In this document: positions 13,087 to 38,783 of the stretch, in pieces
Layout: every line of letters starts with the position of its first letter
How positions within the stretch are numbered: the stretch's first letter is position 1
Assembly (NCBI GenBank): GCA_963854735.1
Contig: OY978109.1
Location: forward strand, 620,001 to 684,000
Reading direction: 5' to 3'
Length of the DNA: 64,000 nucleotides
DNA from: Marvania coccoides
Lineage: Eukaryota; Chlorophyta; Trebouxiophyceae; Chlorellales; Chlorellaceae
Made by a program: the position numbers and the translations under genes
Notes under the pieces: model-generated
What the model was told of the DNA's origin: nothing
Databases searched by the model: none
Seen by the model: only the letters and a program-made list of their open reading frames with translations

Positions 13087-15432
13087 TTAGCAAAAGGCAA
13101 TCGTGCTGTCGCTGCCTCCTCCCTCCAAAGCAGACAACCTTCGGCCAAACGTCGACGACCGAGATAGGCTACGAGCGGCGATCGTTCCATTATTCGCTGG
13201 AGGGTCCGCAGGCGCCCACCCTGGCACCTTTTGCCAGGACCCCGTTGAAGGCGAAATTTTTCTCACAGCCCCTGCTGCGCTCCACTCCGCTTCGCCACTC
13301 GCAATGCTGTCTGACAAATTGCCGCTCCTCCGCCGCGCCGTTGCCCACTCCTTCCTGCGCCTGCGCTCCAGCAGACCCCGCCGCAGCCGCAACACCGCTA
13401 CCACAATGGCCACCGCTGCCAATGCCCCCAGAATCCACGCCGCAACTTTACTAGCGACGTCACCCGCAACGGGGCGATGCCCGCTGCCCCCCCACCAGCT
13501 CAACCAGGAGCCGTCGCCGCCCCATGCCGCAGTCAATTTAAACGCCTCCGGCTGCCCCAGCTTCGCCAGGCGGTGGCCTTCCGCCAACGCGGCACCCAAC
13601 GTCCACCCTGCGGTGCCCTCTGCGATCTCCACCTGGCCGTCTTTTAAATTCAGGCCTGTGGACAGCAGTGAAGAGGTGTACCTCGCCCTAAAGCAGTACG
13701 TTTCCGGCGACAGCTCCCCGCCGTAGCGGGACTCCACTTCAGGCCACCGCAGCCCGCAGAAGGTGTCGCCGGCGGAGCGCAGCGCTGGCAGCCCGGCGGC
13801 GGGCGACACTCTGAAGAAATGAGCCACCACGAAAAACCCAGCCAACGCAACAAATCGCCCTTGGTTGGCGCCGGGCTGCGGCCCGTCTTCCAGCGCGCAG
13901 GGAGGGGCGCTGCAGTCGGCAGGGGCGGTAACGACGGCGGTGGCGAGTTCTGCGCAGGCAGCTGCGTCATAGCTGCCGACCAGCGTGAGAGCCTCAGGGT
14001 GCGGTGACTTGCCCCGTAGCGGCACGCGCTTGTACAGCTTGCGGTAGCCTGAGTGCAGGCAAGGGTGTTTAACTTCTGACACCTCCGGCAGTTGCCGCTG
14101 CCGCTGCTGTTGCGTTTCTAACAACGCTCTTCTGGTTGTTTCGACAGCGCCGTCCCCACCGCTGATTGCTGCCGCTTCCTCAGTTGCATCTCCATTTTTT
14201 TGGTGCTCCTCTACCTTTTGCTGATCCTCTGCCGCCGCTGCTGCTGCTGCCGCCTCCACTTCTTCCGCCGCATTTGCAGCTGCAGCTTCCTTGGCTCGCT
14301 GCTCTGCTGCCGCCGCTATCTCTCTGGCTTTATGCTCCTCTCGATCCCGCTCCCGCTGCTCCCTTTCTTCCTGCAGTTTTAATAGGCGGCGCTGCTCCGC
14401 TTCCAACAAAATAGTCACAGACCGCTCAAAAGCGTCGTCCAATCCAAAGTGATAGTGGGAGTGGGTCACCAACGAGTGCTGAGCGCCCATTAGCGACACG
14501 TTCACCACTGCAGCAGTCGGAAAGAAGAGGAATTCATGAGGAGAAAATGGAAGGAAACCATTGAAAGTTGTATTTCTGCCAAAAATACACCAAAACAACA
14601 GCCCGTCATTATTTCAGAAATTCATAAAGGTAGGAAGTTAGCTTTTTACCTCTAGATTTGCCTGGGGCTGCGTCCTTTTCAGGCGCAAATGTGACCTGCA
14701 GCGAGGATCCCCCCAAATCCAGCGTCCCCAGCGTGCTGTTGCTGCCCAGAGTGCCCGCCGCATGGTTCAGCGCCACCCACGCAAACACCCCTTCGTCCGC
14801 ACCCTCCATGACGCGCGCCCACGGACGGTCAAACCGAAATCCGGAGCTTCCCAACAGCTTCCTCGCTTCTTCCAGCACCCGCTCCCTGTCGGCCCCCCGC
14901 AGCTTCCGCAGCCCCGCCGTGCCCAGCAGAAACACGGGGGTGGAGGCCCACCTGCCACTGGGCACCACTGCCCGCGCCCACTCCAGAAGTGGCTCTAAGG
15001 CTTTCGGGCCTATTGATGTAGGAGAATCGGCGAATCTATCAAGGCCTGGCTCAGTTTCCACGCGCTTGTAGGCGCGGCGGCTATCCAGAGCACGGCGAGG
15101 GACCTTGTGAGGGGCTGCGTCGGGCGGGATCGCCTCCAGAGAGGGCAGAGCGCCGGCAGTGGCGGGGGGGCGCCATACAAAAGCGTTCATTCTGGTGCCT
15201 GAGCTGCCTGCGTCGATAACGAGCACGTATTGTGGGGCGGGAGTGAACACGCCGGCGGAATAGAACAGCGCGATCACCTGAAGAGAGGCGGGAGAAATAT
15301 TGGCGGGGGGGTCATGGGCAAAGGTGCAGCAAGGGACTGACGCAGAGATTTGGGGCTTACGATGAAGAGCGCGATGAATCCGACGAAGAATTGTCGGCTC
15401 TTGGATCCAGAGGCGAAAGATGCGGGAAACAT
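13087..15432 (-). CDS. Membrane GDA1/CD39 nucleoside phosphatase (apyrase) with coiled-coil insert
   Basis: Exons on the lower strand, 15432-15361, 15277-14650 and 14507-13087, give 706 aa. An N-terminal membrane helix (FFVGFIALFIVIALFYSAGV) precedes apyrase conserved region 1 (VLVIDAGSSGTRMNAFVW). Then come LLGTAGLRKL, DEGVFAWVALNHAAGTL and LGTLDLGGSSLQVTF. A second helix (WILGALAAVAIVVAVLRLRR) and a basic, serine-rich tail follow, so the enzyme has the two-anchor ENTPDase topology. The family hydrolyses NTP/NDP to NMP in the Golgi lumen or outside the cell. Between region 4 and HPCLHSGYRKL lies an insert of about 110 residues of Glu/Arg/Ala coiled coil (LLKLQEEREQRERDREEHK) that the family lacks. 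Confidence 0.9.
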
Positions 15433-29674: not shown

Positions 29675-30801
29675 TCACGGGCATGAAGAGAAGGTTAAAG
29701 CTTCATGCAGAATGCGCATGCGGTGCTCCTGCTGCATTGTGGGAAAGGAGCGCTCCAGGGACAGCAGCGTGGCGCGCGCCTTGGCTTTCACGCCGTCCTC
29801 CAGCCTAGAAAACAGATCCGGCATTTCCGCAGGCGAAGCCCACCAAACGGCAAAAAACGAAGCCTCCAGGCCGGTGCAGTTGTAAGGCACGACCTTCCAG
29901 TTGCGGTACCCTGCCGCCACCAGCGTCGTAGCGGGTTTCGCAGCCACAGGGCCCACTCCTAGCGCCAAATCCAGATCAGCTCCGGCTGCAATCAGGTGGG
30001 CAGTTGTTGCGACGTGGCCTAGCCAAGTTGCGAGCCCCAGGGGGGTGCGCCGCATGTCGTCCCGGCTATTGGGGTTGGCGCCGGCCGTCAACAGCAATGC
30101 AGCGACGGCTTCGTGGCCCCGCTGAGAGGCGAGAATAAGCGGGGTTTGGCCGGACAGACTGATGGGGTCGGCGATAGCGCCAGCGGCAATGAGGAGGGCA
30201 ACCACCAGGGTGTGTCCGCCGCTGGAGGCGAAGTGCAGAGCTGTTTCGCCTGAAGAAACAAAAAGGAAATAAATGAGTTTAGTAAGAAGCATAGTTTTGC
30301 AATACATCTGCAATTTGAAAGCCCGTTTTCTTGAGGTTTTTTTTATCAGTGCATAAACGAAGCTAAAACAGAATGCATTTTTAATTACGTAATCTCACCG
30401 TTCCGTGTGACTGCATTTGGCTCAGCCCCAGCGCACAGCAGCAGCCCTACCACGCTCTGCTGTCCCCGCATCGCCGCGATCATGAGCGCCGTCCACCCAA
30501 TCACCATGCGAGCGTTTGTGTCAGCCCCTGCAGCCAGCAGGCGGGCGGCCATGGCAGCGTTGCCGGCGCAGCATGCGAAATGAAGAGCGCTCAATCCTGC
30601 GTCATCCTTGGCTTCCACATCAGCCCCATCGCGTAAGAGATGGTCTACAATGGCACCACTGCCGGCTTCAGCAGCGAATAGAAGCGCAGTTCTTGCAAAA
30701 TGGGTCGCTGAGCGTTCTTCAAGTTTGACAGCGCCCGAGCTCAGCAGCGCTTCAACTTCGCTCAAATTCCCCGCTTGGCAAGCCGAATGCAATGCATTCA
30801 T
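29675..30801 (-). CDS. Ankyrin-repeat protein
   Basis: Lower-strand exons 30801-30399 and 30249-29675 give 325 aa. Starting MNALHSACQAGNLSEVEALL, it has seven or so ankyrin units (TALLFAAEAG, SALHFACCAG, TALMIAAMRG, TALHFASSGG, TPLILASQRG, TPLGLATWLG). The intron falls inside a repeat. The last 90 residues are not ankyrin: they include NWKVVPYNCTGLEASFFAVW and a helical end (LEDGVKAKARATLLSLE). No enzyme domain is present. It probably acts as a protein-binding scaffold. It is the intact relative in style of the broken copy at 1-590 and the remnant at 39.0 kb. Confidence 0.85.
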
Positions 30802-31574
30802 GCCTCTCGCGAGTTATGGGTGCCTGCAGCGTGGTTGCGGGTGAAAATCAGCCCTAGCAATCTGTCTCCCCATCTTTCTCTCTTTTTTCCAAAGACTACC
30901 GCGATGAGGGCATCGTAGGCAACTCACAAATGCTATGTACTTGGCTCAAATTTGAATAGATAACAGAGGGGGGGAATACGCCTTGCTGCTGAAAAATAGT
31001 TGAAAACTAAATTTAAGGAGAAATTTTAGTTTAAAAGGGCGAAATGCGCTACGACAGGGGCGATTACCTGGTTTCGATACCGCCGAAATTTTAAATTAAG
31101 CTAAGAAATGTGTGTCGATGGGTGAAATCGCGGTGTTTTTTCCCTCGGTCAGCAGCGAGGTCAGCGAGGTCCGTTCAATGTCTTCATCGGCCATTTCGCT
31201 TTTGGCACCCAATTCAGACGACTCTAGCATTCCAAAATAAATATCGTGTTAAACGGCTTGCAGCTGAAAGAGGTGAGGTGTGCAGGTTTTGGAAATTTGA
31301 ATTTAAGATGCTTTAACCGAGGATTGGGTTATAGTAATCTTTTGAACGAAGGTTATAGTAATGTTTTGAACCCTGTCGGCTGTTTTCGAATGGCCAGCAT
31401 GCTTGGCAATTTTTAAAATGCGCAGCTCACCGTTCACGGAAGAATTTTGTCCCTGCAGAATTTTTTAAATTTCCTGGGGCTCTCCCATAGGCATCCAATC
31501 AGCGCCCTGAACACTTCCTTCTGAAACTTGTCAAACCCTCTTTGCTCAACCGTCTCTTGCCGGCTCCTCTCGCC
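30802..31574. other. Head-to-head spacer (ankyrin / small protein)
   Basis: 773 bp of AT-rich spacer between divergent starts. No coding region recognised. Confidence 0.4.
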
Positions 31575-32484: not shown

Positions 32485-35400
32485 CTACGACTGCACCGCC
32501 GTAGGCTCGATCTCAGTAAGCCGCTGCATCACCTCCAAAAACGAAGGCCTAGCCGCCGGGTCATGAGCCCAGCACTGTTGCATGAGCTCCACATACTTGT
32601 CCAGCTGCGGCCAAGAGCCGCTGTCTGGCCCAGGCAGTTCATGCGGTGCTGGGATCAGCGGGCGACCGCCGTTGATGCACTCGCCAACGATTTGCCATGG
32701 GGATTTGTTAGGGCCCCAGGGCAGATCCCAGGTGAGCAGCTCCCACCTACAAACCAGTAAATAATGTGCGACATCAGTCATTGCAAATAATAACGTGTAT
32801 ACTTTATTAAACAAACTTACAGCACGACGCCGAAAGAAAAAATGTCGCTGGCAAGGTCATACGCCTCTCCACGCAGTATTTCAGGGGCCAGCCACCTGCA
32901 CAACGAGGAAACACAAAAAAAAATGTTAAGAAAATTTAAGAATTCAAAGTTCTGTTAAACCGCCGCTCGACAGAAAATTCGTGCTTTAAAGATTTGCCAA
33001 CGGCTGCTCACCTGGGGTTTGTGGCCTGCACGGAAATGGATCTTACGGCGCTAGCGTCCTGCAGAACCCTGCTTAAATTGAAGTCGCAAATTTTTGCTCG
33101 CCACGCCTGGGTGACTAATACGTTCGCGCTTTTTAGATCTCTGTGAATCAACGCCGGTTCTTGGAGGCCAAGATACAGCATGCCACGCACGGAGTCGGCC
33201 GCCAGAGAGATGCGGCGGGCCCACGTGAGCTCTGCTGCCCGCGCTGGAGAGGTCATTCCTTCCGCCAGCACCTGCCGCAGGCTGCCGCGCTGACAGAACT
33301 CAGTTACGATGGCAGCAGGGGTAATGGTGATGCCGAGGAACTGCACCACGCAGGGGTGATGCAGCTTGCTCATCAACGACGCTTCCTGATTGAGCCTCGC
33401 CAGAATGGGGTCGTCAAGCTGCAGCAGGGACGACTGAGCGCTGATCCCGCTGGCCTCATGAATCGCCCCCCCGCCGCCTTCGTTCAGCAGTACTTTGACT
33501 GCCACTGAAGAAGACAGCCAGGTCGCTTCGTAAACTCGCCCCCAGGCGCCTTCTCCTATTGGGCGCTTAATTTCAAGGTCCGAAAAACGCAACTCGTACA
33601 ACTCCCCTGCAGCCGTCGAACTTCGGCGGTATGCCGACCCTGTCGTAGCGCGGCTCGTGGAGTTGGTCAGCGTGGAGTTTATGTACGCCAGAAGGGGGTC
33701 AGGGGCGGTGGACGCAAGGCTGCCTCGGCTGCTGGTGCTGCGGGCGACGGCGGCCTGGCTGGAGGCTTTCGAGGGGTTGAATTCGCCAGGCATGTGCATC
33801 TGCGCTAGATGATGGGAGCTTAGGCTTGCGGCCTTGGCGCTGAGTACTTCAGGGGGTGGGGGCGAGGTCTTTGCGGTTGCAAAATGGGGATGCCCAAAAG
33901 TGGCCATGTTTTGCTGCAAAGGAGATATGGAGACGCCGGGAGTGCTTGTTTGGGGCGATTCTTTCCAGCTCTGCTGTCTCCAGGGCTGTTGGGGAGGACC
34001 TGCAGGCGTATTGAGTTGAAACGGCGTTGTTGTTATTGTTACACTTTCAAAGAACACAATGATAAGATAGATTATAATTAGAATATAAGAATTAGTTCGT
34101 ACCTCCTCTGGAGACTGCTGCAACCCCCAATTCGGGCTCGACAGAGTCCTCCTTGTACCTTTTCCGGGTGAAGAAAATTATGCTTCCCACAATCACCGCT
34201 GAAAAAACAATGTGAGGGGAGGGTGTGGTTGGGGGGAGAAGGAATGGTGAGATGATTAATCTTTAAAAAATAAGTCGAGTGATTCAATGCATTCGCCATT
34301 TGTTTCTTGCCTGCAAAGACAGCGCCTCCAATTGCGGCACCCACAATAATGCCAACGCTCAACGACGATGAGCTGGCTGATTTTTCAGTTGAAGGAGGAG
34401 GAGAAGGCACCGGAGGAAAGAGCGTGTTAGAAACCCCCAAACCAAGGTCGTCTTCTTCAGGTGGAGACGGCGAAGACGGCACTGGAGACGGCGAGGGCAC
34501 TGGGGAGGGAGAAACTGGAGAAGGGCTGGGAGATGGCTGTGGGTTGATGGCGGGAGGGGGTGAAGGGGTAGCCACTGGTGTTTCATAGGTTTTTGGAATG
34601 TATTGGGTGCACGTGGGAGGGACAGCGACCGCATTTGTTGGTAGTGCTAAATTTCCGGTGCACCCGGCTTCGTATTTTGAGGGCCTGGTGACGCCCCAAG
34701 GGCAATCTTTGGGAGCGTAGGGAGGGGCAGGAGTGAGACATACTGCGACTCGGATCAACGCTTTGGTCGGAATGTCGCAAACGAGCGTTGCTTTGGCGCC
34801 CCATGCCCCCGACAGCTGCTGCAAGAAAGTTTCTCGGTCGACGGTAGGCGGGGTAATCCCAAGGTCTGCCATAATGTCCTGCAATTTGGGATTACGCAGG
34901 CATTAATTAGAATGTCAATAATCAGCCTGAGGCTGCAGCGCGAAATCCTCAAAAGAGACAACAAACAACACGAGCTTAATTATCCTCGTTGTACACTGGG
35001 TATATGGGGGGAAAGGGGGGGGAAACTTACGTTGGGGTTGAACTTGGGCCAAAGCTCGTTGGCAACCAGAGAAAAATATTCATCTAGAGGGAGCCCAGTG
35101 CATACCCCCCACCGGTTCCATGACTGGGTCCACAGAGCTGCATCGTCGCCATCGTTGCTCCGCCAAATGCAGGCCAACTTTTCCGCTACAGCGCCAGGGA
35201 TGGTACCAGCCGCAGAGCCGCAGTTATCTAGCTCTGCGACCACGGCATTTTCGTCAATTGCCAAGAATTCATCAACGGTAAACGCTTTCCTGCAAAATAA
35301 TACAGAAACTCAGTTATCCTCGGATTACACTGGGCATATGAAAAAAAGAAACTAGTTGGAAACAGCTGATTGAGTGGCGGTGACAATTCAAAGCTACTCA

Positions 35401-35656
35401 CACAGGCGGGACGGCGCATTCAGAGTCGCTGAGGTCTTCAATGCAGCTGCTAGGGCTCCAGACACTGCAAGAACGGTAAAGAGGGCTTGCAGTGAGAAAA
35501 AATGGGATGGGGGGAAACCGTACGATGATCTCTGGCCAGCTGTTTTCGGCCTCACAATCTCAAAACTAGGTGTGTCATCTCTCCTTGCGCCAGGTACGAG
35601 GAAAAGAACATTACACTGTAAATTGCTAATTCAAGCTGTTTCCGGAACGTCTTCAT
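32485..35656 (-). CDS. Receptor kinase A: RNase T2-like pseudo-enzyme ectodomain, TM helix, TKL kinase
   Basis: Eight lower-strand exons (35656-35556, 35464-35402, 35289-35031, 34878-34311, 34198-34103, 33999-33012, 32895-32821, 32746-32485) close to 803 aa. Residues 1-24 are a signal peptide. The T2 fold spans about 27-225: THLVLRFVWSPSSC, LWTQSWNRWGVC with DEYF, ELWPKFNP, DLGITPPTVDRETF, LVCDIPTKALIRVAVC and KDCP. The HGLWP motif is absent, and the second catalytic His is Trp115. A Pro/Ser stalk leads to one membrane helix (about 314-347) and RKRYK. After a low-complexity juxtamembrane region, the kinase (501-797) has GEGAWGRVYEATW, Lys531, HRDLKSANVLV (648-658), DFNLSR (668) and WLAPEIL. 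Ligand unknown; signalling across the plasma membrane is inferred. One intron has a GC donor. Confidence 0.88.
34971..35008 (+). repeat. Dispersed repeat copy in intron of receptor kinase A
   Basis: CGAGCTTAATTATCCTCGTT followed by ACTGGGTATATGGGG lies in the intron between the exons 35289-35031 and 34878-34311, antisense to the gene. Confidence 0.6.
35310..35347 (+). repeat. Second dispersed repeat copy in receptor kinase A
   Basis: TCAGTTATCCTCGGATTACA and CTGGGCATATGAAAAAAA lie in the intron between 35464-35402 and 35289-35031, which is an intron that receptor kinase B lacks. Confidence 0.6.
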
Positions 35657-35957
35657 TTTTCAGAATTGTCAAATTAATTCAATCGCAGTCGCAGATCAAG
35701 TTTGAATAATATTGAGCGCCTGCTATCGCCATGCAGCGCAGACATACATCAAAGCGTGCTGTATTTAAACTTGCAATCAGATTGATAGCGACGTGAGAGA
35801 GAGCTTGAGGACATTGATCTTACACAACGAAAAAAAGAAATGGTACCGCCATTATTTGCCTCGCCACATGGGTGGGTGACGCTGAAAGCTAGTTGGAAGC
35901 AAAACCGACGGGATTTTGCAGGCCGCACGGCACGCAACGAAGTCTTCTAGTTGACCT
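35657..35957. promoter_or_regulatory. Spacer between the two receptor kinase genes
   Basis: 301 bp separate the stop of gene B from the start of gene A. It must include the 3' end of B and the promoter of A. No motif stands out. Confidence 0.4.
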
Positions 35958-38783
35958 CTAGTTTTGCGCCACCGTCGGCTCGATCTCTTTCAGCCGTTCC
36001 ATAACCTCTAAGAACGGCGGCCTGGCCGCTGGATCTTGCGCCCAGCACTGCTGCATGAGCAAAACGTACTCGCCCAGCTTCGGCCAGGCGCCGCTGTCAG
36101 GCCCAGGCAGCTCATGCTGCGCTGGCAAAGGTGGGCGCCCACCGGCAGAGATTGCACCGACAATTGCCCAAGGGCTTGTGAATCCCCAAGGCACATCCCA
36201 AACAAGCAGCTCCCAAAGGACAACACCGAAGGCATACACGTCGCTGGCAAGGGTGTAAGCCTCCCCACGCAAGATTTCGGGAGCCAGCCACCTACGCACA
36301 ACATTAACGGTAAATTAAATTAGCTTTCGGGTTGATCGTAGTTTCGATTGGAAAAAAAGAATTATCAACTAATAAATATGTTGGCGCTCACCTGGGGTTC
36401 ATTGCTTGCACGGTGGCGGACTTTGCACCGCTGGCATCTTGAAGCACGCGACTAAGGTTGAAGTCGCAGAGTTTGGCTTGCCATGCGTGCGTAACTACCA
36501 CATTCCCGCTCTTCAGATCTCTGTGAATGACGGGAGGGGTCTGTGAGTGAAGGTAAATCATGCCACGCACGGAGTCGGCGGCCAGAGAGATGCGGCGGGC
36601 CCAAGTGAGCTCTGCTGCGCGCTCTGGAGATGTCATCCCGTTCGCCAGAACCTGCAGTAGGCTGCCGCGCTGACAAAACTCGGTCACGATAGCAGCGGGG
36701 GACGTGGTGATGCCGAAGAACTGCACCACGCACGGGTGGTGCAGCTTGCTCATCAAGGTGAATTCTTGGTTCAATCTTGCCAGAGTTGGGGCGTCAATTT
36801 GAAGGAGAGAAGACCTGGCGCTCAATCTCCTGGCGTCGTGGCCCCCACCGGTACCATCACTCAGCAGTAATTTTACGGCGACTGGAGAAGACAACCAGGT
36901 AGCCTCGAAAACTGCGCCCCAGGAGCCGACGCCAATCGGCCGCTTCACATCCAGATCAGAAAAGCGCATCTCCCACGCAGCTAGGGACCCCCGGGAGCCT
37001 CTGGAATCTGCAGTAGCAGCGCTTGTGTTGCGCAACGTGGATTTTATGTACGCCAGCATGGGGTCAGGGTGGGCTGAATCTGGGATTCCTCCTCTGTTGG
37101 TGACGCTGCTGTTGAATGCAGACTGCGAGGGGCCTGGCAAGTCGTAAACAGCGCCGCCATTCGGCTCTTTAGCGGGGTTTTGAAGGCCTAGGCTTGTCGA
37201 ACGGGTGTTCCAGCCCTCAGAGGGCGGGGAGGTAGCGTAGGCGTAACCGAATGAGGCTGTGCCTGGCACAGGAATAGCTGGAGGGGGGGCAGCATATGGG
37301 CTCATTTTATGAGAGGATTCATCCCAGTTGTTGTTGACTGCAGAGCAATTAATGTTAGGACTTGAATGAGCCAGTCACTGAGTTACCGGTTGAAGAAACA
37401 AGCGTTTTACCTTCACTTGCTGTTGGCAGCCCCCCTCGTTTGGCATTAGCAGAGTCGTTACGGCGTTTTTTGTGCATAATATATACAATGCTTGCTGCAA
37501 TCGCGACTGCAAAAAAAAAAGAATTGATGTGAAAAGATTGCATGGGCATCGACCCCCCGCCCCCCGCCTCGTTGGGGAGGGTCGTTCAAATTTTGATGCT
37601 TCTCTCTTACCTGCAACAGCAACACCTCCAATTATAGCACCCACAATAACACCAATGTTTGACGAGGACGACTCGGAAGAGGAGGAGGAGGAGGAGTTCT
37701 TCAAGTCTTCCTCGGCTGCAGGAAGAGGCGGCGGCGGCGGCGGAAAGGAAGTTGCTACTGTCACTGGAGACGGAGAAGCAGGGCTGGGGCTAGGAGACGG
37801 TGGGCTGGCAGGGGTTTGCGTTGGAGGCGATGGCGTTACTGGCGCTGGGTATACGGTTTCGTACGTTCTCGGAATGTATTGGGTGCAGGCGGGAGAAACT
37901 GCCACTGCTCCTGTGAGCGGCAAAGACAGCTGACCAGCGCACTCGGCTAGGTACTTTGAGGGTCTGGTGACACCCCACGGGCAATCTTTGGGGGCGTAAG
38001 GAGGCTTGGGATCTAAACAGACGGCCACTCGGTTGAGAGCTTTAGTGGCAATGTCGCAAATGAGCCAAGCCCTGGCGCCCCAAGCAGTGGACAGCTGCTG
38101 CACGAAAGTGTCTCTGTCGACGGTGGGAGGTTTAATCCCAAGGTCTGCCATTACATCCTGCAATTCACGTGTAAAACCCCCAGCTATATGAGTAGGAAAA
38201 AAACGAGGCCGCGGCAGGAAGAAACATTTTTCATATGGAAAATCTCTCTTACGTTTGGATTGAATTTAGGCCACAGCTCGTTCGAAGCCAGCGTAAAGTA
38301 CTGGTCGATTGAAAAGCCGGTGCAGGTCCCCCAGTTGTTCCATTCTTGGGTCCACTTTGCGTTATTGTCACCGTTATCGCTCCTCCAAATGCAGGCCATT
38401 TTAGCTGCCACCGCAGCGGGGATGCTCGTAGCCACGCTCGTTAAGTTTGTGCCGCAGTACTCTTGCTCTGCAGTTACGGCAGCTTCGTCTATCGCAGCAA
38501 ACTCATCGGCGGTGAACGCCTTAAAAGGCGGGACGGTGCATTCGGTGCCGCTTAATTCCAGAGCGCAGCCGCTGGGGTTCCAGATGCTGCGCAGACATTG
38601 AAGATGGATGCGAGTTTAGATGGGCTGGTGCAATGCATTTTCCGAGCGAAATGACGCAGATATTATTCAAAGTGAGCCTCACAAGCGGAGCACCAAGTGT
38701 GTCGTGGCTCCTTGCGCCAGCGAAGAAGTAGAAATTATAAAAAGCCATATACATAGTTGAAGAGTCCTACTCAAGGGCTTCAT
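35958..38783 (-). CDS. Receptor kinase B: RNase T2-like pseudo-enzyme ectodomain, TM helix, TKL kinase
   Basis: Six lower-strand exons (38783-38683, 38586-38253, 38157-37611, 37506-37411, 37337-36392, 36291-35958) close to 785 aa. Tandem paralogue of A, same orientation. The signal peptide is LQLCIWLFIISTSSLAQ. The T2-like part (27-225) reads THLVLRFIWNPSGC, KWTQEWNNWGTC, IDQYF, DLGIKPPTVDRDTF and VAVCLDPKPP. Glu115 of the second catalytic motif is kept, but the catalytic His is Trp119 and HGLWP is absent. The helix GVIVGAIIGGVAVAVAIAAS ends at HKKRR. The kinase (485-780) has GVGSWGAVFEATW, Lys515, HRDLKSGNVVV (631-641), DFNLSR (651) and WLAPEIL. It lacks two introns present in A. Both first exons are 101 nt and both helix exons 96 nt. 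Confidence 0.88.

Follow-up and report, generated by a model that had tools for sequence, protein, structure and literature searches.

Tandem candidate receptor kinases with an RNase T2-fold ectodomain that has lost catalytic residues in Marvania coccoides

Introduction

What purpose could the fold of a ribonuclease (RNase) T2 serve on the outer side of a membrane kinase? The question is raised by two adjacent genes, here called gene A and gene B, on the minus strand of a 64,000-nt stretch of the genome of the green alga Marvania coccoides (contig OY978109.1, positions 620,001-684,000; hereafter the window, in which all positions are numbered from its first letter). Each gene encodes an RNase T2-like ectodomain, a stalk rich in proline and serine, a single membrane helix and a kinase of the tyrosine kinase-like (TKL) group. 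A kinase and a nuclease also share one membrane protein in IRE1, whose nuclease works in the cytosol and has no relation to T2.

Here we report an analysis of these two genes, of their relatives in the whole genome (22.46 Mb, 15 contigs) and of two related proteins from outside it. Six matches to the RuBisCO small subunit and 21 to chlorophyll-binding proteins in the assembly fit a green alga, nuclear small-subunit genes being a mark of the green line. As judged from sequence, genes A and B are probably tandem duplicates encoding plasma-membrane receptor kinases, in which the T2 fold would bind an extracellular ligand without cutting it. This reading draws on the family identity of the ectodomain, the loss of its catalytic residues and the selective constraint that it has nevertheless kept.

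Results

RNase T2 identity of the ectodomain

An earlier note on this DNA had suggested searching both spliced proteins with the Pfam profiles PF00445 (RNase T2) and PF07714 (kinase), and both profiles match both proteins. The curated cut-off of PF00445 is 26 bits; the match covers residues 29-195 of the gene B protein (E 2.1e-13, 51.3 bits) and residues 29-190 of the gene A protein (E 3.1e-10, 40.9 bits). These matches are not due to chance, since the same profile is above cut-off in four related proteins described below, C6b (109.5 bits), C6a (38.4), C7 (34.3) and P0001 (32.0). Searched alone against the PDB, the T2 domain of gene B matched RNase Rh at 7.9e-5. A family profile of seven domains (B, A, C6a, C7, the two of C6b and the partial domain of P0001) had RNase MC1 as its best PDB match (1bk7, 2.4e-12), with profile positions 5-178 of 219 aligned to positions 6-183 of 190 in the chain. 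All 17 distinct PDB sequences matched by this profile at E<=1 bear T2-family names, Actibind and trichomaglin among them. The conserved cysteines of the family are retained in the receptor ectodomains. On the evidence of these profiles and motifs, the ectodomain of A and B belongs to the RNase T2 family.

The exon structure points to the source of this domain. The same genome contains a T2 gene, C11, that carries the motifs FTIHGLWP and EWSKHGTC and whose splice sites were read by eye. A phase 2 intron two codons before the FT motif is common to A, C6a, C7 and C11 and is absent from B and C6b, while a phase 0 intron after the PN motif is common to A, B, the first T2 domain of C6b and C11 and is absent from C6a and C7. 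A third intron, near the N-terminus, lies close to its position in C11 without being identical. Because two introns match C11 in both position and phase, the ectodomain appears to have originated from a T2 gene.

Loss of the active site

The receptor domains were aligned at the active-site motifs with two intact T2 genes of the same genome, C2 and C11, both of which have the site I histidine and the glutamate, lysine and histidine of site II; in C11, tyrosine replaces the first histidine of HEW. Site I (FTIHGLWP) is readable in seven receptor domains, namely A, B, C6a, C7, the first and second of C6b, and the sixth gene C6c, and its catalytic histidine is present in none of them, Ser, Asp or Tyr standing in its place. 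At site II (EWxKHGTC), where P0001 can also be read (n = 8), both the lysine (Arg in A) and the histidine are missing from all eight domains, and the glutamate is left in two, B and P0001. The phenylalanine of FW, found in both intact genes, has become Leu or Lys in 8/8. Given that the catalytic residues of both sites are lost, save for the site II glutamate in these two domains, RNase activity is unlikely, and the ectodomain is best described as a putative pseudo-RNase. Site I of C6c reads FTISGL, one residue away from the FTIHGL of the enzymes.

Gene models and domain architecture

The models of A and B were rebuilt from the DNA with splice sites picked by hand, and the two reading frames, claimed in the earlier note to close in phase at 803 and 785 amino acids, came out with the same lengths and coordinates. 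GT-AG boundaries are found in 11/12 introns of the two genes and GC-AG in 1/12. This GC-AG intron (34310-34199) interrupts the membrane helix of gene A, and a GT-AG intron stands at the equivalent place in gene B. Pfam matches, hydropathy and the models together bear out the proposed order of T2 ectodomain, Pro/Ser stalk, single helix and TKL kinase. Each protein has one strongest hydrophobic stretch, located behind the stalk (19-residue Kyte-Doolittle means in Table 1), and the next-best stretches reach 1.47 in B and 1.61 in A. The basic stop-transfer cluster expected after the helix was found as HKKRR in B and TRKR in A. Both proteins start with a hydrophobic N-terminus, judged by eye to be a signal peptide.

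A single exon runs from the end of the T2 domain through the entire stalk to the middle of the helix (38157-37611 in B, 34878-34311 in A); a division into separate T2 and kinase genes would therefore cut the helix and was rejected. In the paralogue C6a, one exon encodes the helix, the juxtamembrane part and the N-lobe of the kinase.

Constraint on the ectodomain

Between A and B, the T2 domain is 72% identical with a ratio of nonsynonymous to synonymous substitution rates (dN/dS) of 0.16, and the kinase is 76% identical with a ratio of 0.15, values from a Nei-Gojobori type count that are rough because dS for both domains is 1.1-1.3, near saturation. The corresponding figures are 47% and 0.42 for the stalk and 37% and 0.51 for the juxtamembrane part. 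The T2 domain is not decaying and is as constrained as the kinase.

Paralogues and outside relatives

The earlier note had presented A and B as a tandem pair of T2 receptor kinases. The pair is real but not unique, as the genome holds five intact fusion genes (A, B, C6a, C7 and C6b) and two outside relatives, P0001 and P0002, exist. The additional genes C6a (L053, 750 amino acids), C7 (L054, 758) and C6b (L055, 1111) were spliced in frame; genome paralogues share 54-60% identity with A/B in the kinase and 35-42% in the T2 domain. A Pro/Ser-rich stalk is present in A, B, C6a and C7. The C6b protein contains two T2 stretches (PF00445 2.9e-31), the second of which reaches the helix by a stretch unlike this stalk.

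Other T2-related loci were noted in the genome. The sixth T2 gene, C6c (L055:7178-9743), keeps T2 domain and helix, and its kinase is seemingly degraded to a remnant. Locus L061 encodes a T2-like protein devoid of the catalytic residues, and the kinase search gave no match at this locus. The T2 gene at L062 is intact, and its open frame has a long acidic insert between the two active-site motifs.

P0001 (652 amino acids) and P0002 (617) were found in a protein collection in which the 7992 candidates sharing most words were scored. Each has a truncated T2 domain, from which a single open frame continues through helix and kinase. The two share 78% identity, and their source labels differ. The frame of P0001 is continuous where A and B carry introns, which fits a complementary DNA (cDNA) or an intron-poor gene. 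Identity of A/B with P0001/P0002 amounts to 57-70% in the T2 domain (101-149 residues) and 54-57% in the kinase, and by their T2 domains these four seem to form a single subfamily united by its ectodomain. The T2 region of C6a, compared with 416 candidates of the protein collection, gave no match at E<=1, and tblastn against viral contigs with P0001 and the C-terminal part of the B T2 domain revealed no relative.

The kinase domain

The glycine loop, the VAVK lysine, the HRD aspartate and the DFG aspartate are present in 7/7 T2-linked kinases, which thus carry the motifs of an active protein kinase, as far as motifs can tell. Compared with solved structures, the A kinase is closest to CTR1 (two entries, the better being 3ppz), followed by an EGFR entry, by MLT, MLK and TAK1 types, and by ABL and FAK. 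No kinase of the receptor-like kinase (RLK)/Pelle type occurs among the best 60 of its 433 matches, and membership of the A kinase in the plant RLK/Pelle group appears doubtful.

In a tree of 23 rows built from hand-chosen sequences, the seven T2-linked kinases fall in with further kinases of this genome, whose ectodomains are different. The related receptor kinases L056, L057, L059 and L024 have other cysteine-containing ectodomains, and those of L056, L057 and L059 contain no Pfam domain above cut-off. Another related kinase gene, at L058 (2035-4380 in reverse-strand numbering), has an outer part with three near-identical units (NCTDFWLNDNPEGF...), behind which a long simple repeat translates as YIHT.

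Other features of the window

Coordinates of both genes and their domains are collected in Table 1. On the same strand, the window contains apyrase-like open frames at 13087-15277 recognized by the motif VIDAGSSGTRM and, judged by eye, ankyrin-repeat-like open frames at 29675-30813. Rfam gave no match in the window, and residues 1-371 of B had two NCBIfam membrane-segment matches, both below threshold.

Table 1. Window coordinates of genes A and B and of the domains predicted in their products
Feature	Position	Strand	Details
Gene B	38783-35958	minus	785 amino acids, 6 exons; in-frame spliced model, 5/5 introns GT-AG
Gene B exons	38783-38683, 38586-38253, 38157-37611, 37506-37411, 37337-36392, 36291-35958	minus	
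Gene B RNase T2-fold ectodomain, catalytic residues lost	37858-38705	minus	residues 27-245, spliced; PF00445, profile, motif alignment
Gene B membrane helix, split by intron, then basic HKKRR	37472-37656	minus	hydropathy 2.68
Gene B TKL kinase domain	35991-36948	minus	residues 490-775, spliced; PF07714 1.8e-45
Gene A	35656-32485	minus	803 amino acids, 8 exons; in-frame spliced model, six GT-AG introns and one GC-AG intron
Gene A exons	35656-35556, 35464-35402, 35289-35031, 34878-34311, 34198-34103, 33999-33012, 32895-32821, 32746-32485	minus	
Gene A RNase T2-fold ectodomain, catalytic residues lost	34582-35578	minus	residues 27-240, spliced; PF00445, profile, motif alignment
Gene A membrane helix, split by intron, then basic TRKRYK	34167-34356	minus	hydropathy 2.59
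Gene A TKL kinase domain	32518-33577	minus	residues 504-793, spliced; PF07714 4e-48; CTR1 3ppz 1.5e-47

Discussion

The earlier note had proposed that the T2 fold was recruited as an extracellular sensor, perhaps of RNA. Recruitment as an ectodomain is upheld by the family profile, the introns shared with C11 and the order of domains; sensing of RNA found no positive support, and the catalytic residues are gone. In the scenario that we favor, Raf/CTR1-like receptor kinases with interchangeable ectodomains would already have formed a family when they took up exons from an RNase T2 gene. Decay of the active site would have followed, with the fold and its cysteines kept as a binding module. An extracellular ligand may then pair or reorient two receptors, which would switch on phosphorylation in the cytosol. 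We infer the surface location, the binding of a ligand and the activation by dimerization or reorientation. RNA is a less likely ligand than a protein or than some secreted or wall component.

Structure prediction speaks neither for nor against the T2 fold: models were poor both for one exon of the window, aligned with two further sequences (mean predicted local distance difference test score, pLDDT, 58.8), and for the truncated P0001 aligned with five others (mean pLDDT 38.1), and a Foldseek search with the single-exon model returned six matches, none of them a T2 protein (best E 3.7). Several observations weigh against this scenario. P0002, in which about 100 residues of the T2 end are left, has no Pfam T2 match. 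In six of the seven T2-linked kinases the DFG motif is replaced by DFN. A single origin of the T2-bearing kinases is compatible with the kinase tree but weak (42/75, 46% of bootstrap trees). By kinase, P0001 and P0002 stand nearer to C6a, C7 and C6b (61-64%) than to A/B, opposite to the pattern of the T2 domains, and in the tree they do not join A/B; since the affinities of the two domains conflict in this way, either the A/B kinases have changed faster or domains have been exchanged. The near saturation of dS also tempers the argument from constraint, and a ratio taken over a whole domain would miss selection acting on few sites.

Other roles for the ectodomain have to be weighed against binding of a protein or wall component. 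The domain might bind RNA or nucleotides without cutting them and so sense extracellular nucleic acid from lysed neighbors or viruses. RNA is the natural ligand of the T2 fold, and a W-N/S-P-S motif precedes the first cysteine in four of the six readable domains (with variants in C7 and C6b2); yet the phenylalanine before the site II tryptophan is replaced in every receptor domain and most residues of both sites are gone, which makes this role rather unlikely in our estimate. The acidic charge of the domains was not accepted as evidence against RNA binding, because the receptor domains, with isoelectric points of 4.1-4.8, do not stand apart from the tested part of C11, also at 4.1. In a related proposal, the pseudo-T2 ectodomain of a green-algal receptor class would read an extracellular signal connected with nucleic acids or RNases and drive a Raf/CTR1-like kinase right at the membrane, in a design separate from RLK/Pelle; we hold this to be tentative and on the whole unlikely.

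Alternatively, the receptors could act in mating or cell recognition and detect a partner protein released by secretion, by analogy with the S-RNases of flowering plants, which act as the female determinant in one self-incompatibility system according to the accessible part of PMC9250077. The tandem arrangement and expansion of the family in one genome would suit such a role, but the T2 domain is, overall, as constrained between A and B as the kinase, and we consider this analogy improbable. The T2 domain might also be a passive spacer or wall anchor beside a stalk that does the signaling, as in proline-rich extensin-like receptor kinases. Four of the fusion proteins have such a stalk, and the effect of RHS10 on root hairs requires its Pro-rich part, as stated in the available text of PMC4783376. 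The stalk, however, is far less conserved between A and B than the T2 domain in both identity and dN/dS, and the second T2 domain of C6b meets the helix without a Pro/Ser stalk, so that a merely structural T2 domain would be very improbable. Receptors that use a catalytically inactive T2 fold to bind a ligand thus remain our preferred explanation.

In agreement with the earlier note, which knew of no described receptor of this type, no T2-kinase receptor appeared in the titles and starts of abstracts listed by searches of open-licence PubMed Central (PMC) papers. RNase T2 and S-RNase enzymes such as RNase MC1 and RNase LE resemble the A and B ectodomains in profile fold, in cysteines and in the two introns shared with C11, but they stand alone, whereas A and B have lost catalytic residues and gained an attached stalk, helix and kinase. 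In the accessible portions of two surveys of plant T2 genes (PMC5598434 and PMC9250077), the word kinase occurs once each, both times about self-incompatibility. A pseudo-RNase in itself is not new, because 91 plant T2 sequences are listed as inactive or lacking an essential histidine in the part of PMC5598434 consulted. A catalytically inactive plant T2 protein of this sort is CalsepRRP, which matches the T2 family profile at 2.6e-4 (1jy5) and, like A and B, misses essential histidines; unlike them, it is assigned a storage role, with no kinase mentioned in that part of the survey.

Receptor kinases offer parallels from the other side. In the PR5K thaumatin-like receptor kinases, a pathogenesis-related fold likewise forms the ectodomain; they differ from A and B in that the fold is thaumatin-like and in being classed with the plant RLKs (PMC10868138, in its accessible sections). 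A Pro-rich receptor kinase of Arabidopsis, RHS10/PERK13, is linked to an RNase T2, RNS2, which is a separate enzyme and in yeast two-hybrid assays bound the kinase domain of RHS10 rather than its outer part, as reported in the text available from PMC4783376; in A and B, kinase and T2 fold form one polypeptide. Chlorophyte RLKs are few and patchy by the count in the same portion of PMC10868138, with 1 to about 4 in the chlorophyte rows of a table and 9/18 chlorophytes having any.

Against this background, ectodomains derived from an RNase and joined to Raf-like kinases would reveal another route to kinase receptors. The T2 receptors would clearly exemplify the conversion of an enzyme fold into a receptor, in a family whose ligand could be sought using purified ectodomains.

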